The notes beneath the pieces are model-generated. The model did not search any database, was not told the DNA's origin, and worked only from the letters and a program-made list of their open reading frames with translations. Positions 15-31,492 of a DNA stretch of 33,560 bases are shown here, piece after piece. Every line of letters begins with the position of its first letter. The first letter of the stretch is position 1. The position numbers and the translations under genes are program-made. Source of the DNA: a virus; IMG/VR virus record IMGVR_UViG_3300034190_002068, positions 1 through 33,560 of that record, one strand, 5' to 3'.

Positions 15-188
15 ATGATAGGATCAAAGAAACGACTAATTGAACTAGCTGACGATGCGCAAAAAAAGGCAGACGAAGCTGTAACACCCACGACCCGTGC
101 CTTGTACAGAGGCATGGAGATGGCTTATCTGGACTCCGCAGACCGCGTGGACTGGGATAAAACATGGAACAGAGAGGAGGGTGAGTAA
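15..188 (+). CDS. Small hypothetical phage protein (57 aa)
   Basis: I do not recognise this protein. It reads from an ATG preceded by an AAAGG-type ribosome site and ends in a TAATG overlap with the next gene, so the two are probably translationally coupled. The N-terminal half is Lys-rich (KKRLIELADDAQKKADEA) and probably helical. The C-terminal half is acidic and aromatic (DWDKTWNREEGE). There are no cysteines, signal peptide or membrane segment. It is the first complete gene of the plus-strand early module in this window. Confidence 0.6.
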   Translation: MIGSKKRLIELADDAQKKADEAVTPTTRALYRGMEMAYLDSADRVDWDKTWNREEGE

Positions 189-397
189 TGTACGACGTTT
201 ATTGCGGAGGTAAGAAAATCGCAGAGGACGTAACCTACCGAGAGGCTTTGCCTTACTTGGAGAGGTGTAGGGATGCTGAGATTCGACCGAATACCGAATT
301 TAATGTAGCAACCAATCGGGTCGTCTTTTCTTCACTTATGTTGCTGGGTTGCGCGGTTGGCGGTTTTGCCATCGTAATCCTAGCTTGTATACTATGA
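188..397 (+). CDS. Small C-tail membrane protein (69 aa)
   Basis: The family is not recognised. The first 45 residues are soluble and charged. Residues 48-69 form one hydrophobic segment (SSLMLLGCAVGGFAIVILAC) ending at the C-terminus, so the protein is probably tail-anchored with its N-terminus in the cytoplasm. The start overlaps the previous stop (TAATG) and the stop overlaps the next start (ATGA), placing it firmly in a coupled early operon. A role at the host membrane, such as exclusion or host takeover, is possible but not shown by the sequence. Confidence 0.65.
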   Translation: MYDVYCGGKKIAEDVTYREALPYLERCRDAEIRPNTEFNVATNRVVFSSLMLLGCAVGGFAIVILACIL

Positions 398-684
398 TTA
401 AGTACAAACAAACCATTATACAGTCCGCAGAGGACGTAACGGGTGTACCTGCAAAGATCATTTGCGGGGCGAAACGTACGGATGAACTCGTAAACATACG
501 GGACATTTGTGCAACGATCATCAAAGAGGAGCTAGGCAGTAGTGACCAAAGCATTGCCTTGTCTTTGGGGCGGGATCGTAGCTCAATCACATACGGACAC
601 ATGAGGCACTCTAAGAAGATGCAGAACAGTCCTTTTTATCAAACCCTATACTGGGAGATAAAAAAGGCTTGCAGGGCGGACTAG
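394..684 (+). CDS. Stand-alone DnaA domain IV-like DNA-binding protein
   Basis: This 96-residue protein resembles only the C-terminal DNA-binding domain (domain IV) of the initiator DnaA. It has a helix-turn-helix region followed by SLGRDRSSITYGHMRHSKKM, which matches the DnaA signature around GRDHTTVIHAxRKI, with RD-R in place of RD-H. The AAA+ ATPase domain is absent. I start it at the ATG at 394, which overlaps the previous stop as ATGA, rather than at an in-frame ATG 45 bases upstream inside the previous gene. By family knowledge it should bind DnaA-box-like DNA. It could act as a phage initiator helper, a competitor of host DnaA or a transcription regulator. It lies directly before the candidate structured RNA. 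Confidence 0.75.
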   Translation: MIKYKQTIIQSAEDVTGVPAKIICGAKRTDELVNIRDICATIIKEELGSSDQSIALSLGRDRSSITYGHMRHSKKMQNSPFYQTLYWEIKKACRAD

Positions 685-685
685 A

Positions 686-1050
686 CACGTCCTATAAAAT
701 GGAGAGTTACAGTTTGCTGGGGATATGCCAGCTAGGGGAGCGTCACCCCGAAATGATGGCGCAACTCTCTAATCTAGGTTATAGTTTACCCGCAGTGATA
801 TGCCCAAGGCTATTGTTACGCCTCGTGGATTAACCACGACCACAAGCGGGAGGGGGCTGGGAACAAATGAAACGATAGGTTGCCGAGCTATACTGAAGAG
901 TGATGAACCAAAAGGGGATTTACCTGTTTAGGAACGAACTGACGAATCGGTTGGGTTAAGCGTGGTAGCGAAACACTTAGGGGGCATTGTGTCCATTCAC
1001 GAAGGTTGCCGAGATTAAACTTGTATCCATTTACGTAAACCGATACATTT
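686..1050 (+). ncRNA. Candidate structured noncoding RNA or structured intergenic region
   Basis: About 370 bases without a credible gene. It contains many nested complementary segments: GAGAGTT (702-708) with AACTCTC (763-769) enclosing hairpins GCTGG/CCAGC (716-720/728-732) and GGGG/CCCC (735-738/746-749); then CCCGC (789-793) with GCGGG (846-850) enclosing AGGC/GCCT (807-810/820-823) and CGTGG/CCACG (824-828/834-838). ATAG/CTAT (875-878/888-891) is a further weaker hairpin. The 11-mer AGGTTGCCGAG occurs at 877-887 and 1003-1013. The strand is purine-rich with GA/GAAA loops, as in large RNAs. I could not match it to RNase P, tmRNA, a group I intron or a riboswitch. It could instead be a DNA site such as an origin bound by the adjacent DnaA-like protein. 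The strand is inferred. Confidence 0.5.
1021..1049 (+). promoter_or_regulatory. Candidate promoter with palindrome in the spacer
   Basis: TTGTAT (1021-1026), a 17-base spacer and TACATT (1044-1049) form a sigma70-like promoter. It ends 7 bases before the ATG at 1057, leaving essentially no leader. The spacer contains the perfect palindrome TTTACGTAAA (1030-1039), a possible operator. The following gene has no Shine-Dalgarno sequence. Confidence 0.4.
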
Positions 1051-1689: not shown

Positions 1690-2429
1690 GTCAACATTAC
1701 TATAAATGCGAACCCGATAAAGATCCCGTGTTCCTTAAATCCGTTACCAGCCCAGCAAAGGCTCGCGGTAAGGAATACGTTTACCCGTCCGTTACTACTA
1801 TCCTGTCCATTTGCCCAGATGCTTTCTTGGGTATGTGGTCAAAGAAAGAGATGTTCAACTACGGTAGACAAACCGAGCTATCATACGAGGAAGCCGAAGA
1901 GAGGTTGTATGGTATGCGCAGGTGTCCAGATCAGAAGATTGCCATACCTAGTGCGGAATTCGGAACCAATGCCCACAAGTACATGGAGGACTGGGGAAAT
2001 GGTGAAGAAGACGAGAATAACCCTTACGCGGAGATATGTTCCGGTGTAATTGAGTTATTTGATGATTGGGAACTGGAGCCGGAATTGTCCGAAAGTATAC
2101 AGTACAGCCATGACGATGCGTGTGCAGGGACAGTGGATCTGATTGCTAAGATTGGAGATGATACCGTTTTATTGGACTACAAGTTCCGCGCTTGTAAGGG
2201 GTCTGGTAAGTTCTGGTTCAAGGACTGTATGCAACTAGCTATTGAATCCGAGTGGGTGCAGGAGCGTTATAACCTTGAGTTTAGACCCGATATAATATCT
2301 ATCTGTATTTGCACAAACACCGGAAAGGTTTACCCAAAGCGTTGGAAAGCGTTGGATCAAGTACAGGGCATCAATGCGTTTCGCGCAATTAGGGACGTAG
2401 CCAGAACAATGAAAGGTTGGGAAGTTTAA
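1686..2429 (+). CDS. PD-(D/E)XK nuclease (Cas4/RecB-like exonuclease)
   Basis: A 247-residue protein with the RecB/Cas4 nuclease pattern. YPSVTTIL (residues 33-40) is followed by GTNAHKYMED (93-102, motif I His97), then AGTVDLIAKI (147-156, Asp151), LLDYKFR (162-168, the Asp164-x-Lys166 core) and a Gln in QLAIES (183-188, motif III-like). These are the metal-binding and catalytic residues of the family, so an active DNA exonuclease is expected. Cysteines are scattered (for example ICIC, 206-209) and I cannot assign an iron-sulfur cluster. It begins in a 4-base overlap with the preceding gene and precedes the OB-like protein. That pairing suggests end-resection for recombination or degradation of host DNA. 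Confidence 0.85.
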   Translation: MSQHYYKCEPDKDPVFLKSVTSPAKARGKEYVYPSVTTILSICPDAFLGMWSKKEMFNYGRQTELSYEEAEERLYGMRRCPDQKIAIPSAEFGTNAHKYMEDWGNGEEDENNPYAEICSGVIELFDDWELEPELSESIQYSHDDACAGTVDLIAKIGDDTVLLDYKFRACKGSGKFWFKDCMQLAIESEWVQERYNLEFRPDIISICICTNTGKVYPKRWKALDQVQGINAFRAIRDVARTMKGWEV

Positions 2430-3323: not shown

Positions 3324-3484
3324 AGAACATTGAAAAAGCTATGAACGCCTTGGAGACTGCACTTAGTATTTTGGACTCCGAAGATTTGCGCGATGAATTG
3401 CGAAAGTTACCCGAAACCTCTCTCATCTACCTCAATGGCGTAAACTCCGCTGTTAGGGTAGCAATCGAAAACCTAAAAAAATAA
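3320..3484 (+). CDS. Small helical hypothetical protein (54 aa)
   Basis: I start it at the ATG at 3320, which overlaps the previous stop, not at an ATG 33 bases upstream in the preceding gene. The protein is almost wholly helical and amphipathic (MKNIEKAMNALETALSILDS ... AVRVAIENLKK), so it may dimerise. The function is unknown. Confidence 0.55.
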   Translation: MKNIEKAMNALETALSILDSEDLRDELRKLPETSLIYLNGVNSAVRVAIENLKK

Positions 3485-7174: not shown

Positions 7175-8061
7175 TGATAACTCAGGAATACACATTTCTA
7201 CAGCCACCGGAAGCAACTAAGTGGAACGTCTTGAATTTAGGGGCTGGTGTCCAGTCTTCGGCACTAGCACTTATGGCAGCTAAGGGTGAGATAACTCCGA
7301 TGCCGGACTTTGCTATATTTGCGGATACACAAGCGGAACCGCAGTCCGTTTATGACTGGCTTGATTGGCTGGAGGGAGAACTTCCATTTCCCGTGCATCG
7401 TGTCACCAAGGGTAATCTTACGGATGATTCATTGACTCCAGCTGTAGCTACTGCTCGCGCAAAGAACTACAAGGAGGGGGAAGAATACATGAAGCGAATC
7501 ATTCCCGTATTTGGATTGATGCCCGATGGGAGTAAAACTGCGGCGATAGGTCGAAGTTGCACCTCTGACTACAAGATACGAGTCATGGAAAAGAAAATCA
7601 AGGAACTTTGTGGTATAGATCGCGGAGAGAAAGAGCTAAAGGTCACTCAATGGATTGGTATATCGTGGGATGAGATACAAAGAATGAAGGAGGCTAGGTT
7701 GCCGTGGACCCAGCTTAGGCATCCATTGATTGAGAGAAAAATACATCGACATGATTGCATCAAATGGATGGCCGATAATGGATTCCCTGAGCCACCCCGC
7801 TCGGCTTGCGTATATTGCCCTTTCCATAATGACACCGAATGGCGCAGGTTGCGTGACGATGAGCCACACGAGTTCCAAAGAGCCGTTAAGTTCGACAAGG
7901 AGTTACGTGAACTATCTCGGCGGGACTCAGCCCTAAAAATGGAGGTTTATCTGCATAGCCAATGCAAACCGCTTGATGAAATTGACTTTGATTCGGACGA
8001 GGACAAGGGCCAGCAGGTATGGGACTTCAAGGCTGAATGCGAAGGGATGTGCGGCGTATAA
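7174..8061 (+). CDS. PAPS reductase/ATP-pyrophosphatase (adenine nucleotide alpha hydrolase) family protein
   Basis: A 295-residue protein with the modified PP-loop NLGAGVQSSALALM (21-34), an ADTQAEP segment (50-56), RSCTSDYKI (127-135) and a CxxC in SACVYCPFH (210-218). These features place it in the PAPS reductase/DndC/QueC-like superfamily, which activates a substrate with ATP or reduces sulfate adducts. True PAPS reductase activity is uncertain because the usual SGGKDS loop is altered. Phage members have been proposed to modify nucleic acids or to assist sulfur metabolism. I start at the ATG at 7174; an upstream ATG in the same frame lies deep in the exonuclease gene. The gene is bounded on both sides by near-identical 33-bp repeats. 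Confidence 0.85.
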   Translation: MITQEYTFLQPPEATKWNVLNLGAGVQSSALALMAAKGEITPMPDFAIFADTQAEPQSVYDWLDWLEGELPFPVHRVTKGNLTDDSLTPAVATARAKNYKEGEEYMKRIIPVFGLMPDGSKTAAIGRSCTSDYKIRVMEKKIKELCGIDRGEKELKVTQWIGISWDEIQRMKEARLPWTQLRHPLIERKIHRHDCIKWMADNGFPEPPRSACVYCPFHNDTEWRRLRDDEPHEFQRAVKFDKELRELSRRDSALKMEVYLHSQCKPLDEIDFDSDEDKGQQVWDFKAECEGMCGV

Positions 8062-8065
8062 CCTA

Positions 8066-8103
8066 GGGGGTGACTTGCGGGGTCGACTTGCGGGGTTGAC
8101 TCC
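8066..8103 (+). repeat. Tandem 13-bp repeat, three copies
   Basis: Directly after the stop of the PAPS-reductase-like gene stand three consecutive units: GGGGGTGACTTGC, GGGGTCGACTTGC and GGGGTTGACTCCA. The third unit is also the beginning of the right-hand 33-bp repeat. Units differ by one or two bases. A protein-binding array or slippage expansion of the repeat boundary are both possible. Confidence 0.8.
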
Positions 8104-8124
8104 AGCCACCTCCACAAATTATTA
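8092..8124 (+). repeat. Right copy of 33-bp direct repeat
   Basis: This block matches 7142-7174 at 29 of 33 positions. It is followed by 21 bases and then the ATG of the next small gene. It begins with the third unit of the 13-bp tandem array. Confidence 0.8.
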
Positions 8125-8145
8125 AAACACTAAACAGTATAAACA

Positions 8146-8343
8146 ATGAGCGATACAGGAACACATAGCCACAGCAACAGGCACAGGATGCACGAGGAGA
8201 ACGCTGAACTCCGCAAGGACAAGGAACGTCTGGACTGGCTACTGTCTATGGTCGGCTGGGCTAGTACCAGAGAGGACATCGACAGGATGATGGGGGACGA
8301 GCATAATGATGGTGACTTAGACCGCCTTAATCAAGACCTATAA
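8146..8343 (+). CDS. Small coiled-coil phage protein (65 aa)
   Basis: The core HEENAELRKDKERLDWLLS is a short coiled-coil followed by a Trp-rich turn, a pattern I recall from many small phage proteins of unknown function. The N-terminus is His/Ser-rich (TGTHSHSNRHRMH) and could bind metal. The C-terminus is acidic. It is transcribed downstream of the second 33-bp repeat. Confidence 0.65.
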   Translation: MSDTGTHSHSNRHRMHEENAELRKDKERLDWLLSMVGWASTREDIDRMMGDEHNDGDLDRLNQDL

Positions 8344-8360
8344 ATTAATATAACTTTATG

Positions 8361-11850: not shown

Positions 11851-14016
11851 CTAAATTTGCTCAATCGTGTAATTTGCACCCGAAGCTGGGTCCGATACCG
11901 TAGTAGAAGTAGCACTTGTACCTAACCCTTCACTTAAACCGTCACCACCAAGATTCTGCGACAGTTCATCGCGGCTGGATACCTTAAATGCCTGGTTTGC
12001 GGCCTCTTCGCCATGACTAATGATGAAGGCGTCGTAAACATTCATAAGACTCCTTTTGCGTTGCTCCATGTACGCCTTGAGGTTTTCGCGGAAACGCTCC
12101 GGTGATTGACCCTGTGCAAGTGCGGTTCTTGAGTTCATCAACAAGTCCAACTCAATATTGGAAACCTGCCCAAGTCCGGAAGCACCACTTTCATTGCTAT
12201 CGCGGAGTGCCTGGAGGGTGGAGAACGCAGCATCCGCCTGTAGTGTTTTAATGACTTTTGCTTGGTCAAAGGCTTTACTTCCGGGAACGAAACTAAAGAA
12301 AAGACCCAAGGGACCAGCCGTAAGGAGGCCCGCATCCTTTCCTGCTTGTTCGGCGGCGCGTTGAATAACTGCGTTTTGGCGCAGGAGGTCACCTACCTTG
12401 TAGATGGAAGCAATCTTGGACCGTTCCTTTAACTCGTCTCGTTCAAGTTTATCCTGTTCTTGCTCGTAGTTAAACCGATCTATGTCCAAGCCCAGTTTCC
12501 GTAATGCAACCTGGTCGTCTAAACTAACGCCATCCGATATGTTACCAAGGGATCTCGTTACGCCATCCTTGTCAGTAATCAACAGTTTTCCGCTTTGTTC
12601 AAAGATTACGGGTTCCTTCTTGGCTTCTTGCTGTAACCCGCGAGCAACGGCATTTATTTGCTGTGCAGTTGGGTCCTTGAAGCCTCTTTGTATCAATTCG
12701 GACTTAGCTTGTTTCTTAGCGTCCCCAAATGATAACTCAGTATCATCCTTCGGTGTACCAAAAAGTCTTTCATTGCGTTCTCTTTCGCGTTCAATGGCTC
12801 GTTGTTCCAGGCGACCCTGTAACTCCTGTGAGGCCATCTCTGCGCCCATATACTCAGGGGCGAGTGGTTGAACGCCTTCGGGAATATCAAAGCCCGCTTC
12901 CCGCATGAGTCGCGTAGCCTCCGGGGTTGCTCTACGACGTAAACGACCTGTACCGGGTTCAACAAACTGCTCAGTGCGCTGGATTGGCTGATCCTCGTAA
13001 CGCATAAATTGTGCGTAGCTCTGACCTTCCATTGGACGACCCATAAGGCTTGCTTGTCGGCTGGCATCAACTTGTGCTTGTTGCTCTTGCGCCTGTAAGA
13101 ATGGATCACGGCTAAAGCCCGTTTCGGGGCTGAAGGTTGTACCCATTCTTTCGGCCAAAAGTTCTCCCTTTTTGATTTCCTCGTCAGTCAGCAAACCGCG
13201 CTGTTGCATCTCTAGGAATGCCGCCTGTGGGCTACCGGGCTGTACGCCCTCCGGTAATGTAGGCCGAGGAGTTGGTATATCCCTTTGTGCTAAGAACTCA
13301 GATACAGTTTGTGTAGCAGGCTGAGCTTCGGCTGGATTGATGACTGGTTGTATAGCCCCAAGGATTTGTTTGTCTAGTTGTGGAACACCAGCTTGCGACA
13401 TTGTTTGATTGATGATCGCACGTTTGTCTGGTTCTTGTAGTACAGTGCCTTGACCTGGTACAAATGGGTTATTGGCTAGTTCTGGAATACCTCGTTCTAC
13501 AGGTACAACACCGACATCCCGCAGAGTACCCTCTTGCATCGCTTTCTCTAATTGCTCTTGTGTTGTTGGGGCAGGAGGCTCTACTGCGGTATTGAAAACA
13601 AACGGATTCTGTATACCGAACATTATATTGTCAAGGTTCGTAAATTCCGTAAAATTGTATGGTATGTTCGCCGGGTCCTGTGGTTGTACCTTCATGGGAT
13701 CGTCAGCAAAGGAGTATCGTTCCTGTGTAAAATCAGGTATAGGCATATTCAAAGTAACGGGCCTAGAGTTTGCCCCCGCAACCTCTTTCACTGCGTCGAA
13801 CCTAGGAGGAACCGGAGTCCCTTGGCGTTGTGGCCCCCTGGTGGTAAGATTACCAGATTGTGTATCGTAGTTAACATTAGGCCCAGCGAGTGCATTGAAC
13901 ACTGAGCCTAGCAACTCTGGAGACGCACCAGCAGAAACCGCTGAATCCATTAAATCTTGATCCTGCTTGCCTAAAAGGGCTTGTACTGCCCGGTCTTGTG
14001 AAATTCCTAAAGCCAT
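11851..14016 (-). CDS. Large Gln/Pro-rich virion protein, probable ejection partner (721 aa)
   Basis: This protein is rich in Gln, Pro, Glu and Arg, with a disordered N-terminal half (many PxPxF/Q segments) and a helical, charged C-terminal half (RLEQRAIERERERNERLF; RKLGLDIDRFNYEQEQDKLE). I do not recognise a domain. Its pairing with the 938-residue gene downstream, at the end of a podovirus-like late operon, suggests an internal or ejection protein. It begins 6 bases after an extended -10 sequence, so it may be expressed separately from the upstream structural genes. Confidence 0.65.
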   Translation of the reverse strand: MALGISQDRAVQALLGKQDQDLMDSAVSAGASPELLGSVFNALAGPNVNYDTQSGNLTTRGPQRQGTPVPPRFDAVKEVAGANSRPVTLNMPIPDFTQERYSFADDPMKVQPQDPANIPYNFTEFTNLDNIMFGIQNPFVFNTAVEPPAPTTQEQLEKAMQEGTLRDVGVVPVERGIPELANNPFVPGQGTVLQEPDKRAIINQTMSQAGVPQLDKQILGAIQPVINPAEAQPATQTVSEFLAQRDIPTPRPTLPEGVQPGSPQAAFLEMQQRGLLTDEEIKKGELLAERMGTTFSPETGFSRDPFLQAQEQQAQVDASRQASLMGRPMEGQSYAQFMRYEDQPIQRTEQFVEPGTGRLRRRATPEATRLMREAGFDIPEGVQPLAPEYMGAEMASQELQGRLEQRAIERERERNERLFGTPKDDTELSFGDAKKQAKSELIQRGFKDPTAQQINAVARGLQQEAKKEPVIFEQSGKLLITDKDGVTRSLGNISDGVSLDDQVALRKLGLDIDRFNYEQEQDKLERDELKERSKIASIYKVGDLLRQNAVIQRAAEQAGKDAGLLTAGPLGLFFSFVPGSKAFDQAKVIKTLQADAAFSTLQALRDSNESGASGLGQVSNIELDLLMNSRTALAQGQSPERFRENLKAYMEQRKRSLMNVYDAFIISHGEEAANQAFKVSSRDELSQNLGGDGLSEGLGTSATSTTVSDPASGANYTIEQI

Positions 14017-31142: not shown

Positions 31143-31290
31143 GTTAGCAGTCCAGATCATAGGGTCAATACTTCATATGCTTCCACAGGCTTTTAATCCA
31201 TGCCGGCATTTAGGCGGTTTGCTTCATGCGCGATAAAGCTTTTCTTCTTTTGCTTAGGATATATCTGACGGGCTTATGAGGTCGCAAAGT

Positions 31291-31323
31291 TTGACCAGGC
31301 ATTGACCAGGCGTTGACCAGGCA
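31291..31323. repeat. Three tandem 11-bp iterons
   Basis: TTGACCAGGCA, TTGACCAGGCG and TTGACCAGGCA run without gaps. The 11-bp period matches about one helical turn, so all units face the same side of the DNA. This arrangement is typical of iterons in replication origins or of terminase small-subunit and regulator sites. Confidence 0.85.
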
Positions 31324-31492
31324 TTCCATTTTTTCAGTATTCAAGCGGTTTTGGATCCTTCATGCGGTCTAAGGTATATGTACTACGGTTTAAAGACGTT
31401 TTCGGGCGGTTTGTTTGCGGTATACGGTGTCGGGGATGATGGTTGCGCGACGGTGTCAGGTACATTTGCGGGTTGACGGTGCCGACGGGCAC

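Follow-up and report, generated by a model that had tools for sequence, protein, structure and literature searches.

What is encoded in the 372-nt gap that separates a DnaA-like gene from the next gene in a 33,560-bp virus record (IMGVR_UViG_3300034190_002068), the whole of which was analyzed and is here called the window? The upstream gene (394-684, plus strand) specifies a 96-aa protein resembling DnaA domain IV (PF08299, E = 4.4e-8), and the downstream gene, which starts at 1057, is a member of phrog_3704. An earlier note had taken positions 686-1050, just after the DnaA-like gene, to be a gene-free block carrying an unassigned large structured RNA. The block lies where it was placed and holds no gene, but the conserved element within it is narrower, at about 707-1026. 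Compensatory changes in homologues support the RNA assignment and, on the sequence comparisons described below, it is very probable that the block is a conserved structured RNA.

The same note had recognized no known RNA class, and database searches agree. When Rfam 15 was searched with the window and its relatives, no family reached its gathering score within the element, and the best sub-threshold matches of the element were those of chance. No riboswitch family matched the element, and zero tRNAs were identified in the window using ARAGORN. Judging from comparative evidence that is good but drawn from few sequences, the element is an uncatalogued structured phage RNA. A short protein gene in place of an RNA is extremely unlikely. 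The only ATG open reading frame of note in the block (699-833, 44 aa) does share a segment, LGE.HPE.M.QL..LGY.LPAV, with the relative L178, where the same frame is open (tblastn E = 2e-6). However, its codon-usage signal is absent (−0.04 bits per codon; 17% of spurious reading frames score as high), and its changes show no third-position bias and mostly alter the amino acid. The frame is not kept on either side of the common segment in L178, where a 2-nt loop indel and the 3′ side shift or alter the reading, and the conserved stretch of 342 nt runs far past it.

Candidate relatives were collected from several starting points. A terminase alignment (A4) yielded 80 family loci. One of these, L105, is the same virus as the window (99.8%), and its record stops short of the block. 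L178, whose terminase is 73% identical to that of the window, carries a homologue of the DnaA-like gene (44% identical) and, starting ∼520 nt past the end of that gene, a sequence with 78% identity to window positions 707-798 over 92 nt (blastn). The homologous element in L178 comprises positions 8010-8351 of the reverse complement (342 nt). Scanning the viral collection for the motif and pseudoknot pattern added a second true relative, L186, which is a sister of L178; of the 18 pseudoknot pattern matches, only L178 and L186 were genuine. Covariance model R1, which aligns to window positions 706-805, was run on 90 loci and on additional whole records and matched only the window, L178 and L186, and a structural descriptor applied to all loci returned the same three. 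Besides model R1, the motif TTACAGTTTG...GGGGAGCnTCACCCCGAAnTGATG can serve as a search handle. The RNA family is narrow within the data searched.

Other routes gave no homologue. Upstream of the downstream gene in 80 loci the DNA was unrelated and held no common sequence, and searches with the DnaA-like gene and the PD-(D/E)XK exonuclease returned zero loci. With the primase, four close relatives (L082-L085) were obtained, as were two loci at a greater distance, but the element sequence has no match in any of them, and nothing was found for the element in the phage and plasmid collections. Seven matches from a double-repeat pattern scan were all repetitive or coding, with no likeness to the element outside the repeat; a similar pattern in genome_contigs gave one chance match within coding sequence of a Verrucomicrobiales contig. 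A “replication initiation protein” of C75C1, considered as a relative of the DnaA-like protein, gave no convincing alignment. The primase relative L084 has a gene-free block of ∼300 nt (240-552) that follows a gene homologous to that of window 15-188; this block folds better than its shuffles (z = −2.17) and has zero Rfam family matches, and it was rejected as a homologue for want of recognizable common sequence with the element. Note also that L088, a very distant primase relative, carries an Rfam int-alpA RNA at 3364-3432 (60.3 bits; gathering score 35.8).

The limits of the element (707-1026, plus strand) were taken from the blastn match to L178, the L178/L186 boundaries and the covariance model, and the 3′ end should be considered approximate in the window. 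Between L178 and L186 the element is identical at 335 of the 336 positions measured. The 5′-3′ exonuclease genes of these viruses are 89.8% identical, their upstream genes 89.7%, and the spacers flanking the element 62.5% and 63%. The ends of the element are fixed because this near-identity stops where the spacers diverge. Such near-identity stems from very strong constraint or from recent exchange. As far as sequences can tell, the homology of the distant window copy favors constraint, and part of the near-identity could come from recent exchange. Either way, the sister viruses have almost the same element although their genes are 10% different. A weak −10-like TATAAA (693-698, plus strand), about 9 nt ahead of the point where homology begins, can be read from the sequence; it has no good −35 and was not reported by a promoter scan of the window.

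From fold energy alone, using a single sequence, the claim of a structured RNA would be unsupported. The window RNA does not exceed its dinucleotide shuffles in stability (z = +0.20), the L178 homologue gives z = +0.40, and the two domains proposed in the earlier note, folded alone, give p of about 0.05-0.16 depending on the chosen ends. Folding-energy scores can overlook genuine structured RNAs.

Covariation was assessed after aligning the window and L178 through common sequence anchors (64% identity). Stems of at least five pairs that form in both sequences and contain a double change were counted without reference to any proposed structure. Seven were observed, whereas column shuffles give 1.09 on average (0 of 500 shuffles reach seven), and four of the seven form a compatible set (716-732, 740-762, 780-892 and 789-850). 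The anchored two-sequence alignment thus contains compensatory changes of the kind that mark a conserved structured noncoding RNA. Its alifold z-score is −4.64, versus −0.71 for an unguided MAFFT alignment. The covariation result holds only when GACCACnAGCnGG and motifs like it are used as anchors, since the unguided alignment misplaces the middle of the element and yields no signal, and it is carried by two distinct sequences only. When the 3′ part was tested alone, covariation was not significant. These data show that the copies are homologous, that those of the sister viruses are nearly identical and that helices covary within the 5′ two thirds of the element.

All helices are given for the plus strand, with the window sequence preceding that of L178. 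Hairpin 1 (716-732; stem 716-720/728-732) has two double changes, GCUGG/CCAGC to GGCGG/CCGUC. It is followed by an H-type pseudoknot (735-762) in which S1 (735-738/746-749) is invariant, S2 (740-745/757-762) has one double change (GCGUCA/UGGCGC to GCUUCA/UGAAGC), and the loop GAAAUGA occupies 750-756. A long-range stem (780-786/886-892; UAUAGUU/AGCUAUA to UAUGGCU/AGCCAUA, one double change) encloses a middle domain (789-850). The latter is closed by 789-793/846-850 (CCCGC/GCGGG to CCAGC/GCUGG, one double change) and contains an inner GUG/CAC stem (795-797/841-843). Two further elements are tentative: a candidate long-range closing stem (773-778/976-981; UCUAGG/CUUAGG to UCUAGG/CCUAGG) with a one-sided change only, and a 3′ hairpin domain (920-968; stem 920-924/964-968) with one double change, UUACC/GGUAG to UUGCC/GGCAG. 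Three helices contain G-U pairs that would be mismatches on the other strand, and the RNA would therefore be read from the plus strand.

The earlier note had drawn two multibranch domains, closed by GAGAGTT/AACTCTC (702-708/763-769) and CCCGC/GCGGG (789-793/846-850), and had asked for covariation in homologues as the check. Both pairs of segments are present at these coordinates. The second stem stands, with a compensatory change from C-G to A-U. The first does not: three of its seven pairs are kept in L178, and 702-706 falls outside the conserved element. What is conserved in domain 1 is the hairpin and H-type pseudoknot, which replace that closing stem. By this comparison, about half of the detailed structure first proposed is wrong.

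The 11-nt repeat reported at 877-887 and 1003-1013 proved sound. Both copies, on the plus strand, match AGGTTGCCGAG exactly, and this is the only repeat of at least 9 nt in the window element. The only repeat of at least 9 nt in the L178 element is CTGGAGCCT (9 nt, at 8187 and 8319 of the reverse complement), which differs from AGGTTGCCGAG yet occupies the corresponding two places. Repeats this long occur in 0.6% of shuffles of the window element (at least 11 nt), which is beyond chance, and in 16% of those of L178, where in both cases matching positions were not required. Because the cores of the two repeats, GGUUGCC in the window and GGAGCC in L178, are each partly self-complementary, a pairing between copies 1 and 2 could make them change in concert.

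The proposed product would be a noncoding structured RNA of ∼320-340 nt, transcribed from the plus strand of the early replication region. Its fold would comprise the 5′ hairpin and H-type pseudoknot, the long-range stem with its branched middle domain, the 3′ hairpin domain and then the second repeat copy. Such an RNA may be a free-standing gene that works in trans, and would most likely bind a phage or host protein in early infection. Action in trans is preferred to control of a neighbor because the downstream gene and both spacers vary between relatives while the RNA is constant; the element precedes a phrog_3704 gene in the window and a phrog_107 exonuclease gene in L178. We hold action in trans to be slightly favored, and a trans-acting structured phage RNA, to which we give a little better than even probability, is the best overall explanation of these sequences.

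The main rival is a replication primer or origin transcript, since the nearest constant neighbor of the element is the DnaA-domain gene. The RNA would be made beside the initiator gene, its 3′ part would prime or regulate initiation, and the DnaA-domain protein would putatively bind DNA just downstream. ColE1 RNAII is a primer RNA that folds and whose 3′ part primes or regulates initiation; the element is likewise a structured RNA beside replication functions, but it has no demonstrated origin or antisense partner, and its downstream DNA is not conserved. Among 25 family records, many of them fragments, the DnaA-like gene occurs only in the window and L178, both of which have the RNA (the L186 record ends before the expected place of this gene). 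Close to its 3′ end the element has a conserved GGGGGC run. In L178, tandem GTAACC-containing repeats lie between the element and the 5′-3′ exonuclease gene (∼1710-1790, minus strand; absent in L186), and in the window a near-perfect palindrome, TGTATCcaTTTACGTAAAccGATACA, is found just past the RNA at 1022-1047, upstream of the gene at 1057, where it could be an operator. Against a primer or origin, the DNA past the RNA is only ∼63% identical, with large gaps, even in the sister viruses. DnaA-box-like sites (TTWTNCACA) are not enriched, with one in the whole window (at 13724) versus 3.1 expected, although a phage-specific box would escape this count, and cumulative GC skew reaches its minimum at about 31 kb. 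These two results, together with G-U pairs that point to a plus-strand RNA, leave the structured origin suggested by the earlier note without support. A primer or origin role is considered unlikely.

A cis-acting leader or attenuator of the downstream gene or operon is given the same low probability. The element lies directly upstream of the early operon, structured leaders are common, and L178 has a terminator-like hairpin directly upstream of the element. The downstream gene is not the same between relatives, however; no terminator or anti-terminator was found at the 3′ end of the element in the window, a leader would not usually have as many as ∼340 conserved nt, and the riboswitch families gave no match. 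That the element is a ribozyme, for example an atypical or degenerate group I-like RNA, is very unlikely. Sequence constraint is near-complete, and the order of long-range stem, branched domain, repeat 1, stem strand, hairpin domain and repeat 2 may loosely recall P3-P4/P6-P7-P3-P8-P7 of group I introns (RF00028). Unlike these introns, the element interrupts no gene; P7 is not recognizable, no group I or other ribozyme was matched in Rfam up to E = 10, and the flanks are not conserved exons (∼62% identical between the sister viruses). Membership in group I was rejected on the last two results. We think it improbable that the element represents a new class of phage RNA machine, either ribozyme or RNP core, in which a pseudoknotted core and a co-changing pair of short repeats would serve early takeover or replication in connection with the DnaA-domain protein.

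The trans-acting RNA preferred here can be compared with other phage RNAs. The packaging RNA (pRNA) of phi29 is a small, essential-type phage structural RNA. The element is likewise a small phage structural RNA, but it has no Rfam match and lies in the early replication region instead of beside packaging genes, and the terminase here is of the large-subunit phrog_2 type. GOLLD and ROOL are large ornate RNAs of phages and prophages that are often found near tRNA islands, and GOLLD often exceeds 800 nt (PMC12286853). The element resembles them in being phage-borne, structured, pseudoknotted and without a known target, but it is much smaller and lies beside replication genes. Membership in GOLLD or ROOL was rejected for lack of a sequence or Rfam match and of a tRNA gene in the window. 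Few large orphan RNAs are known from phages, and the roles of most are unsolved. The present RNA has a length that allows synthesis and probing, and the minimal DnaA-like protein that adjoins it provides a candidate partner.

Two observations were made elsewhere in the window. Three tandem copies of TTGACCAGGC occur at ∼31290-31325, in a region with few genes close to the GC-skew minimum. The phrog_3704 gene at 1057-1689, labelled “ferredoxin”, encodes a protein with 70-81% identity to gene products from hundreds of marine viral contigs, and its DNA matches T4-like cyanophages and pelagiphages close to purM and ferredoxin annotations. The gene looks common to unrelated phages, and its label may have been taken from a neighbor.
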